Source of the DNA: Candidatus Omnitrophota bacterium
Lineage (GTDB): Bacteria; Ratteibacteria; UBA8468; B48-G9; DTJG01
Assembly (NCBI GenBank): GCA_023484085.1
Contig: JAMDAS010000008.1
Span: 1 to 35,935, forward strand
Length of the DNA: 35,935 nucleotides
Direction of reading: 5' to 3'
Position 1 is the stretch's first letter, and each line of letters begins with the position of its first letter. Below are positions 28,436 to 30,418 of the stretch, one piece after another. The notes beneath the pieces are model-generated. The model worked only from the letters and a program-made list of their open reading frames with translations, was not told the origin of the DNA and ran no database searches. The position numbers and the translations under genes were made by a program.

Positions 28436-29470
28436 ATGGGTAAAAGAAATTTTTCCATGCAGGCATACTGGGAAAAAATGGCAGAAGATTGGCAGCCTTT
28501 ATTAAAATTTAAGGGAACTTCACAAAAAGACTGGGAGAAATGGCATCAGCAGGCATATGCAAAATTTGTAGAGTTATTGGGCCCCTTTCCTGAAAAAGTT
28601 TCTCTGGATACAGAAATTGAATCTTCAGTGGAAGATGGGGAATTAATCAGGGAAAGGGTGGTATTTAATTCTGAGGAATTTATGAGTGTGCCATGTCAGG
28701 TTTTAAGACCAAAGAATATGAAGAAAGACAAGTCTAATCCTGCCATATTATGCAGTCATGGTCATGGTCCTTTTGGGAAAGATGCGGTGGCAGGTGTCCG
28801 TTCCAGCAAAGAACATATTAATTCAATAGCAGAGGCAAATTATAATTATGGAGAGCAAATGGCAAAGGCAGGTTTTTTGACAATATCTCCGGATTTAAGG
28901 GTTTTTGGAGAAAGAAGAGACGGAATGGACCCTTTTCCAGGCAGAGACCCATGTAATGTAAATTTTATCAAGGGGGCGCTGTTTGGAATTTATACATTAA
29001 CCTTAAATATCTGGGATATGAAATGCTGTATAGATTATCTTGAAACAAGGGATGAGGTTGACTCTGGTAGAATAGGTATGATGGGTGTAAGCCAGGGAGG
29101 GACAATGACGACGTTTACGTCTGCCTATGATAAAAGGATTAAAGCCGCAGATATTATTGCCTATGTTAATCCCTGGCCTGAATTTGCAATAAAAAGAAGT
29201 AATTTTTGCGGTTCCCAGATAGTCCCTGGTATCTACAGATATTTTGACACTGACGACATTGCCGGTTTGATAGCACCAAGGCCATTACTTCTTGAGATGG
29301 GGATTTATGACAACTGTTTTTTTATTCATGATATGTTAAAAGGATATGAAGGTGTGAAAAAAATATACAAAGCAGCGGGTGTGGAGGATAAACTGTGGGC
29401 AGATATTCATTCCGGTCCGCACGCCTTTGCCGCTAACAAGGCATTTGCTTTTTTTAAACAATATTTATAA
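28436..29470 (+). CDS. Alpha/beta-hydrolase, acetyl-xylan-esterase / dienelactone-hydrolase-like
   Basis: This 344-residue cytoplasmic-type esterase has PAILCSHGHGPFGKD (oxyanion region), GRIGMMGVSQGGTMTTF with nucleophile Ser219, LLEMGIYDNCFFIHD for the acid, and DIHSGPHAFAANKAFAFFKQYL with the catalytic His near 325. The alpha/beta-hydrolase call is firm. Removal of acetyl or other ester groups from sugars is inferred from its place after uxaE and in a polysaccharide locus. GGGAGG lies upstream of the ATG. Confidence 0.82.
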   Translation: MGKRNFSMQAYWEKMAEDWQPLLKFKGTSQKDWEKWHQQAYAKFVELLGPFPEKVSLDTEIESSVEDGELIRERVVFNSEEFMSVPCQVLRPKNMKKDKSNPAILCSHGHGPFGKDAVAGVRSSKEHINSIAEANYNYGEQMAKAGFLTISPDLRVFGERRDGMDPFPGRDPCNVNFIKGALFGIYTLTLNIWDMKCCIDYLETRDEVDSGRIGMMGVSQGGTMTTFTSAYDKRIKAADIIAYVNPWPEFAIKRSNFCGSQIVPGIYRYFDTDDIAGLIAPRPLLLEMGIYDNCFFIHDMLKGYEGVKKIYKAAGVEDKLWADIHSGPHAFAANKAFAFFKQYL

Positions 29471-29510
29471 TAAGTTCTGGATTGCTCTTCTCATCTTTGT
29501 AAATTCACCA

Positions 29511-29591
29511 CGACGCCTGTTTTTACCAAACAGGCAGTCGCTCTCCAAAGAAGGCGGAGAGTATGCACAGGTAGTGCCTGTTCTGTGCATA
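29511..29591 (+). other. Three directly abutting hairpins before the nagB-like gene (leader RNA or structured repeat)
   Basis: Hairpin 1 (29511-29540): CGAC+GCCTGTTT pairs with AAACAGGC+GTCG through one bulged A, a 12-bp stem. Hairpin 2 (29541-29561): CTCTCC-N9-GGAGAG. Hairpin 3 (29562-29591): TATGCACAG-N12-CTGTGCATA. No base separates them. TGCCTGTT in the loop of hairpin 3 (29575-29582) is also perfectly complementary to AACAGGCA (29529-29536) of hairpin 1, so two mutually exclusive folds exist. There is no U-run, so it is not a simple terminator. Confidence 0.6.
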
Positions 29592-29613
29592 ATAAAGATT
29601 CAAAGACAATCCA

Positions 29614-29660
29614 AACTTATTTCTCATTTTGTACAAAGATTTCTTATGCCGGAATTTCAG
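29614..29660 (+). promoter_or_regulatory. Regulatory blocks shared with the 15825-15879 upstream region
   Basis: AACTTATTTC (29614), ATTTCTTAT (29639) and CGGAATTTCAG (29650-29660) occur in the same order as at 15825, 15858 and 15869. The last block ends about 23 bases before the nagB-like ATG and lies just upstream of its ribosome-binding site, so it could act at the DNA or the RNA level. Confidence 0.45.
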
Positions 29661-29683
29661 AAAAATTTTAACAGGAGGAAGAT

Positions 29684-30418
29684 ATGGGGATAATTATATG
29701 CAAAGATAAAAATGAGTTGGGGGAAAAGGCATCAAAACAGGGGGCATCTGCCATAAGAGATGCTATTACAAAAAATGGAAAGGCAAATATTATTGTGGCA
29801 ACAGGAGCATCACAATTTGAAATGCTGGGTAATCTTGTAAAAGAAGACATTCAATGGAATAAGGTTACGGCATTTCACCTGGATGAATACGTAGGGATTC
29901 CTATTACCCATCCTGCATCTTTCAGGCTTTATCTATGGAAACGGTTTGTAAGTAATCTGCCATTTCCTCTGCAGGGTTTTTATTATATAAATGCTGAACA
30001 TAATCCCGGACAGGAATGTAAAAAATTAAATGAAATTATTGTTAATTATCCCATTGACGTTGCATTTATAGGGATTGGAGAAAACGGGCATCTCGCTTTT
30101 AATGACCCGCCATGCAACATGGAAACAGAGGAACCATATATAATAGTAACACTGGATGAAGCATGCAGAAAACAGCAGTTGGGGGAGGGGTGGTTTAAAA
30201 CCTTTGAAGACGTTCCGAAGCAGGCGGTTTCCATGAGCATGAAACACATTCTGAAAAGTAAAAAAATAATATGCAGCGTACCTGATAAGAGAAAGGCAAA
30301 GGCCGTGAGAGATGCTTTTAATGGTCCTGTATCCGTTAATGTGCCTGCTTCTTTTCTTCAAACCCATGATAATGCGGATATTTATTTAGATACAGATTCT
30401 GCGTCTTTATTAAAATGA
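29684..30418 (+). CDS. nagB: Glucosamine-6-phosphate deaminase family protein (NagB-like)
   Basis: This 244-residue member of the NagB/RpiA/6-phosphogluconolactonase sugar-isomerase family has IIVATGASQFEMLGNL (phosphate loop, about 36-51), VTAFHLDEYVGI (catalytic Asp/Glu, about 65) and VAFIGIGENGHLAFNDPPC (about 125-143). It should turn glucosamine-6-phosphate into fructose-6-phosphate and ammonia. Relative to E. coli NagB the active-site NDGHIAFNEP reads ENGHLAFNDP. Asn at the first position is common in NagB of other bacteria, while Asp for the last Glu is less usual, so a related sugar phosphate is possible. AGGAGG lies 7 bases before the ATG. It is separated from the esterase gene by a structured leader and converges with LacI regulator 2. 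Confidence 0.8.
   Translation: MGIIICKDKNELGEKASKQGASAIRDAITKNGKANIIVATGASQFEMLGNLVKEDIQWNKVTAFHLDEYVGIPITHPASFRLYLWKRFVSNLPFPLQGFYYINAEHNPGQECKKLNEIIVNYPIDVAFIGIGENGHLAFNDPPCNMETEEPYIIVTLDEACRKQQLGEGWFKTFEDVPKQAVSMSMKHILKSKKIICSVPDKRKAKAVRDAFNGPVSVNVPASFLQTHDNADIYLDTDSASLLK

Follow-up and report, generated by a model that had tools for sequence, protein, structure and literature searches.

The three contiguous hairpins in front of the nagB-like gene probably form the tip of a nested, noncoding, palindromic mobile element that was inserted between this gene and a hydrolase gene. The window (the whole stretch of DNA analyzed, 35,935 nucleotides) carries the element at the positions listed in Table 1. 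Inverted repeats mark the ends of the element, which has dispersed copies in its own genome and is missing from the orthologous gap of a sister species (G001). Its interior, which holds the hairpins and is referred to here as module E, is interchangeable: the same ends may enclose E, something unrelated to it, or nothing at all, and E modules that are almost identical lie within diverged ends. Overall, we regard the feature as an unusual nested, nonautonomous repeat.

The hairpins and their gene context

The first-pass annotation had described three hairpins that follow one another without a spacer. All three are present, with zero spacing, and together they make up the MFE fold of the region. 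The 81 nt from 29511 to 29591 have an MFE of -35.9 kcal/mol (z -4.3), a stability reached by 0 of 200 dinucleotide shuffles and by 0 of 897 81-nt stretches taken every 40 nt along the + strand of the window. The alternative pairing between AACAGGCA in hairpin 1 and TGCCTGTT in the loop of hairpin 3, from which two exclusive folds had been deduced, is likewise exact in the window. As a conserved switch, it did not hold, since the pairing was perfect in only 3 of 17 copies checked. These three (the window copy, L002, and L003) are near-identical, and all other copies checked have mismatches at 2 or more of the 8 positions. No known riboswitch class had been recognized by eye in the annotation, and Rfam gave 0 matches at the gathering threshold in the window and 0 matches up to an E value of 1 at 29450-29690.

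Table 1. Positions of the element, its module E, and the pairings within it
Feature	Position in window	Strand	Remarks
Whole palindromic element (shell S carrying module E)	29471-29619	+	Includes TA at each edge; 145 bp without the TAs (29473-29617)
TA edges	29471-29472 (left), 29618-29619 (right)	.	Possible target duplication, but ambiguous: in longer copies the inverted repeats run on with TA
Left terminal inverted repeat, AGTTCTGGATTGCTCTT	29473-29489	+	57 genome matches
Right terminal inverted repeat, AAAGACAATCCAAACT	29602-29617	+	Imperfect complement of the left repeat
Module E, interchangeable interior	29506-29592	+	Holds the three hairpins; 22 distinct copies in fetched loci
Stem P1, 5′ strand, CGACGCC	29511-29517	+	Faces GGCGGAG at 29553-29559; weakened in the window copy by two G.A mismatches
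Stem P1, 3′ strand, GGCGGAG	29553-29559	+	Covaries across the E family
Hairpin 1	29511-29522 with 29523-29540	+	12 bp, one bulged A, loop of 5; specific to window-type copies; little covariation beyond shuffles
Hairpin 2	CTCTCC 29541-29546 with GGAGAG 29556-29561	+	6 bp
Hairpin 3	TATGCACAG 29562-29570 with CTGTGCATA 29583-29591	+	9 bp
Alternative pairing	AACAGGCA 29529-29536 with TGCCTGTT 29575-29582	+	Exact complement

The leader had been read chiefly as a riboswitch or attenuator that controls nagB through two exclusive folds. The stable fold, the exact alternative pairing, and the location upstream of a glucosamine isomerase gene (Pfam Glucosamine_iso) in the same direction would suit such a function. 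The orthologous gene pair in G001, however, does without such a leader: the hydrolase and nagB genes are conserved there (nagB 85% identical), with a stop-to-start gap of 16 nt and no trace of the element. Since this gap lacks the insert, the window copy most likely splits an ancestral, tight hydrolase-nagB pair. Further, copies of E lie at unrelated genes. The Pfam neighbors of the window copy are an abhydrolase and the glucosamine isomerase; one near-identical copy (L003) is located between genes for PAPS reductase and ATP-sulfurylase, the other (L002) is next to ApbE and an unknown, and a further copy (L004) lies inside an operon, between two subunits of a proton antiporter. These contexts, the G001 gap, the unconserved alternative pairing, and the lack of an Rfam match make a nagB riboswitch very improbable. 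No intrinsic-terminator-like site was present in the element, which argues against a riboswitch or attenuator; an intrinsic terminator was rejected on the same result. The fallback reading of the annotation, a structured intergenic repeat, is borne out by the dispersed copies, which occur at unrelated places without gene association, the very finding that the annotation had named as refuting its main reading. Any effect of the insertion on nagB would be incidental.

The 53 nt that separate the element from the nagB ribosome-binding site (29620-29672) have no counterpart in the sister gap and form part of no repeat recognized here.

For annotation, the lesson is that a convincing riboswitch-like fold before a metabolic gene was best read as mobile DNA and that comparison of one orthologous gap decided the matter.

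A palindromic shell with an exchangeable interior

The three hairpins occupy the inside of a larger palindrome and are enclosed by its terminal inverted repeats (Table 1). The stem formed by these repeats had been overlooked in the first-pass annotation. Folded as one strand, 29471-29620 forms a single long stem topped by the three hairpins (-58.7 kcal/mol, z -8.2). A 104-amino-acid open frame crosses the element; it is not common to the contexts of the other copies and was taken as chance.

The genome of origin (G000) is a 906-kb draft that is 62.6% complete. It contains 62 matches to 29480-29620; three are nearly full copies and the others are partial, many of them ends only. When up to 1 mismatch is allowed, the left end, AGTTCTGGATTGCTCTT, recurs 57 times in the 906 kb, compared with 1 match for the reversed pattern. 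In the fetched loci, the length between the two ends was 33 bp (3 cases), 59 bp (1), 70 bp (36), 71 bp (8), or 145 bp (3), and 13 further left-end rows had no right end nearby. This tally comprises 64 rows, with identical cores collapsed and chance left ends of up to 2 mismatches kept. Among the three 145-bp copies, E differs at 0 to 1 of 88 positions and the ends differ at 3 to 8 of 57. That the ends diverged while E remained near-identical suggests that E was exchanged between different shells or separately placed in them. The draft state of the assembly and the incompleteness of the genome could point to chance or an assembly artifact. The three copies, however, are on different contigs at different genes, and relatives of E are present in an independent genome, so that an artifact is extremely improbable.

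A stem formed by the flanks of E was evident in the window, where the flank duplex reaches -23.2 kcal/mol, and at L002, L003, and L012; in each case, 0 of 200 shuffles were as good. For L004 to L007, no flank stem beyond shuffles was detected (178, 71, 89, and 88 of 200 shuffles, respectively, were as good), and several of the E copies at tRNA genes, described below, were likewise within the shuffle range. Entry of E into hairpin tips would fit the window copy, L002, L003, L012, a copy in a relic tRNA gene (L014), and the copies in T-loops, while the flank-stem test was negative for L004 to L007.

Many shells (L008, L034, L040, L043, and L046 to L048) are in turn enclosed by bigger inverted repeats (GTAAATAYTCA ... 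TGAGTATTTAC). Another palindrome, TCCGCC-AAAAGATT-GGCGGA, turns up repeatedly next to shells or within them, so that repeats are nested in repeats.

An nhmmer search with E recovered 22 distinct copies (identical cores collapsed) in the fetched loci of the own genome and G001, and the fold was compared across this family. Pairs of the long-range stem P1 (CYACKNC with GNCGKAG) plus inner pairs gave a covariation score of 0.263, versus 0.123 in shuffles (0 of 500 reached the score; 18 of the 22 copies). One pair of the P1 fold is CG in 5 copies, GC in 5, UA in 4, and AU in 1. Hairpins 1 and 2 scored 0.117, versus 0.103 in shuffles, with 41 of 500 shuffles reaching the score. The base of hairpin 3 is the counterpart of a stem, P3 (TRTGC/GCAYA), in the tRNA-linked relatives. 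In 11 copies of the tRNA type, P1, the inner pairs, and P3 together scored 0.181, versus 0.118 in shuffles (2 of 500), with a GC-to-AU exchange in P3; the count of further pair types in these 11 copies was within the shuffle range (394 of 500). These scores show that the fold conserved across the family is the long-range stem P1 and not hairpin 1; hairpin 1 and the switch pairing are peculiar to the three young copies. The compensatory changes fit RNA and single-stranded DNA alike, and an RNA function could instead underlie them. Retention of the strong E fold may mean that structure matters for mobility or that the copies are young.

Relatives of module E in arrays behind tRNA genes

Diverged E copies lie directly behind tRNA genes in both the own genome and G001, within the T-loops of duplicated tRNA 3′ ends. 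Of 14 tRNA-associated copies examined, 11 have one strand of a T-arm on each side (most often GTTC|ACC ... GCAY|AATCC). The left strand is GTTC in 9 of them, GCTC in L009, and ATTC in L014, and the right strand is AATCC; the other three copies (L020, L151, and L163) are truncated on the right. L014 (G001:C61, about 44.9 kb) is a relic tRNA-Ser gene with E in its T-loop; 29 of 31 nt are identical (score of 52, versus a shuffled maximum of 22). A tRNA-Ser(tga) gene is present about 1.5 kb from this relic.

In eight related genomes, a second copy of the gene's own 3′ end was found within 300 nt of 43 of 133 tRNA genes, compared with 75 of 16,528 noncognate trials. Duplicated ends were counted at 12 of 22 genes in G000, 17 of 43 in G001, 9 of 24 in G002, 1 of 7 in G006, 2 of 8 in G015, 2 of 10 in G018, 0 of 9 in G011, and 0 of 10 in G014. 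These counts cover tRNAs with a recognizable TTC[AG]A-like T-loop, the rest being skipped; the tRNA matches examined were 24 of 44 in G002, 7 of 42 in G006, and 9, 10, 8, and 10 of 44 to 46 each in G011, G014, G015, and G018, respectively. The duplicated stretch begins at T54+1 to +3 in 41 of the 43 cases, and its distal end varies. The two exceptions (L089 and L127) start upstream of the T-loop, at T54-5 and T54-2.

Between the copies of the tRNA 3′ end are a tRNA-specific inverted T-arm and an insert, which is either E or a member of another family, B. With up to 3 mismatches allowed over 14 positions, the inverted T-arm was detected in 65% of own tests and 7% of noncognate tests. Family B was found in 19 of the 35 genomes of the class. 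Of the scanned GTDB representatives, from which the records of the own genome may be left out, G001 alone has an exact match to the E core pattern. One tRNA-Asp array carries both E and B. Orthologous sites differ in occupancy: with genes matched by eye, the site behind tRNA-Leu(gag), which has the same gene downstream, is filled in G001 and empty in the other three genomes compared (G004, G005, and G006). Behind tRNA-Trp, G001 has a filled site and G002 an empty one.

Arrays were seen at L008, L009, L015, L019, L061, L065, L100, L160, L193, L200, and other loci of G000, G001, and G002. A third type of insert (GAAAAAGAGGCTTTT..., GTAGTAGGGGGAAG...) lies between tRNA 3′-end copies at L089 (G000, tRNA-Arg-tcg) and L127 (G000, tRNA-Ala-cgc). 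At L061:1034-1207 (G000:C4), a 6S RNA gene (RF00013, 62 bits) directly precedes tRNA-Tyr and its array. At L244 (G001:C69:38300-39700), a tyrosine recombinase gene is convergent to the E-bearing tRNA-Ser(gct) array and is located a small distance behind it.

Such an arrangement recalls integrative elements in tRNA T-arms, and E may be a recombination site that a tyrosine recombinase moves, either as a single-strand hairpin or as an attachment site of the tRNA type. The start of 41 of 43 repeats at T54+1 to +3, a typical attachment region, is consistent with this idea, as are the tyrosine recombinases present in 34 of the 35 class genomes and the integrase gene that abuts the tRNA-Ser array in G001. 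However, 28 of the 35 genomes have only one to three tyrosine recombinase genes, a number compatible with housekeeping XerC/XerD, and simple integration leaves the tRNA-specific inverted and direct flanks unexplained. We therefore think a recombination site rather doubtful. The presence of a tyrosine recombinase as such was rejected as an explanation; it does not track the B repeats, since 34 of 35 genomes have such a gene regardless of whether B was detected in them.

The pairing of P1 and P3, kept through compensatory changes, also raises the question of whether E is under selection as a structured RNA, such as a small RNA, a tRNA-trailer element, or an mRNA-end stabilizer, and only hitchhikes in mobile shells. 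The tRNA-linked copies would be cotranscribed with the tRNAs, and in E. coli a small RNA, rttR/RtT, is annotated in an analogous repeat behind tyrV. Against this, orthologous tRNA genes often lack E, many E copies are truncated, and folding of single-stranded DNA would yield the same covariation. We consider selection as RNA unlikely.

Possible routes of movement and comparison with known systems

The preferred reading, a mobile palindromic element with E at its tip, would involve two kinds of movement. The element ends may be moved in trans by a transposase, in the manner of a MITE (miniature inverted-repeat transposable element) and possibly at TA. E, or its single-stranded hairpin form, may be exchanged between DNA hairpin tips or inserted into them, the T-arms of tRNA genes included. 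Searches gave 0 of 2 genomes for the DDE_3 domain and, in the genus (G000 and G001), 0 of 2 for a Y1 (RAYT-type) transposase; no transposase with matching ends was found among the few families searched in these incomplete drafts. The reverse transcriptase domain RVT_1 was present in 0 of 10 genomes of the family and 3 of 35 of the class, and reverse transcription was rejected as the cassette mechanism on these counts. An origin from phages, plasmids, or viruses was also rejected: the element had no match in phages or plasmids, and the exact patterns of E and B had none in viral contigs.

As a tentative and more speculative extension, E and the unrelated insert B could represent a class of tiny noncoding cassettes (about 80 to 110 nt) that colonize the tips of hairpins, chiefly T-loops in tRNA genes. 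Such cassettes would carry or generate a tRNA-specific 3′-end copy and an inverted T-arm, leave the tRNA intact, and pile up behind about one-third of tRNA genes. They would occasionally jump into the tips of MITEs, as in the window, with E. coli tyrT/RtT as a surviving outpost and a new enzyme at work. Movement of cassettes as folded single strands, and the enzyme responsible, thereby become a testable question.

A structured module shared by dispersed hairpin elements and tRNA-anchored repeat arrays links these two kinds of bacterial repeat. As far as the searches went, the tRNA-array layout is known from one E. coli locus, and its scale, the sharing of insert families, and the connection with dispersed hairpin elements are apparently undescribed; no report of these arrays was found among the titles and abstract openings listed in searches of open-license PMC papers.

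Like REP elements, the GTAG/CGTC-tagged palindromes, as outlined in PMC3733652, the element is intergenic, palindromic, and plausibly mobilized in trans. It differs from them in being much longer and composite and, as its sequence reads, in carrying neither a GTAG nor a CGTC tag where the hairpin has its base; the Y1 transposase of REP/RAYT systems, found in 0 of 2 genomes of the genus, is a further difference.

The element shares with MITEs terminal inverted repeats, a lack of coding capacity, multiple dispersed copies, and empty sites. In the traits sketched in PMC4853749, it is similar to Correia-like and IS630-type bacterial MITEs: short, noncoding, with terminal inverted repeats, a large hairpin, TA ends, and dozens of dispersed intergenic copies. 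TA flanks the element on both sides and also continues the inverted repeats, so that a target duplication is ambiguous. The element differs from MITEs in that its interior is an exchangeable structured module that also occurs outside the element, behind tRNA genes; among the few transposase families searched in the incomplete drafts, none with the same ends was found.

The tRNA-linked relatives, as opposed to the window copy, have an analogue in the 178-bp repeats of E. coli tyrT/tyrV, which contain the RtT RNA (RF00391). In both, tandem units that begin within the T-loop (T54+3 in E. coli) repeat the tRNA 3′ end. In NC_000913.3, the 3′ end of tyrV recurs three times downstream with a period of 178 and a left edge at T54+3, and the Rfam RtT model matches four E. 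coli units at 133 to 138 bits. The same model had no match up to an E value of 5 in 7 tRNA-linked loci, and insert B was rejected as a homologue of the E. coli repeat (scores of 14 to 16, versus shuffle means of 14.6 to 15.3). The systems differ in that here many different tRNA genes carry the units and two or more insert families are common to them. Beside such arrays, the odd tyrT/RtT repeats of E. coli gain a possible general context.
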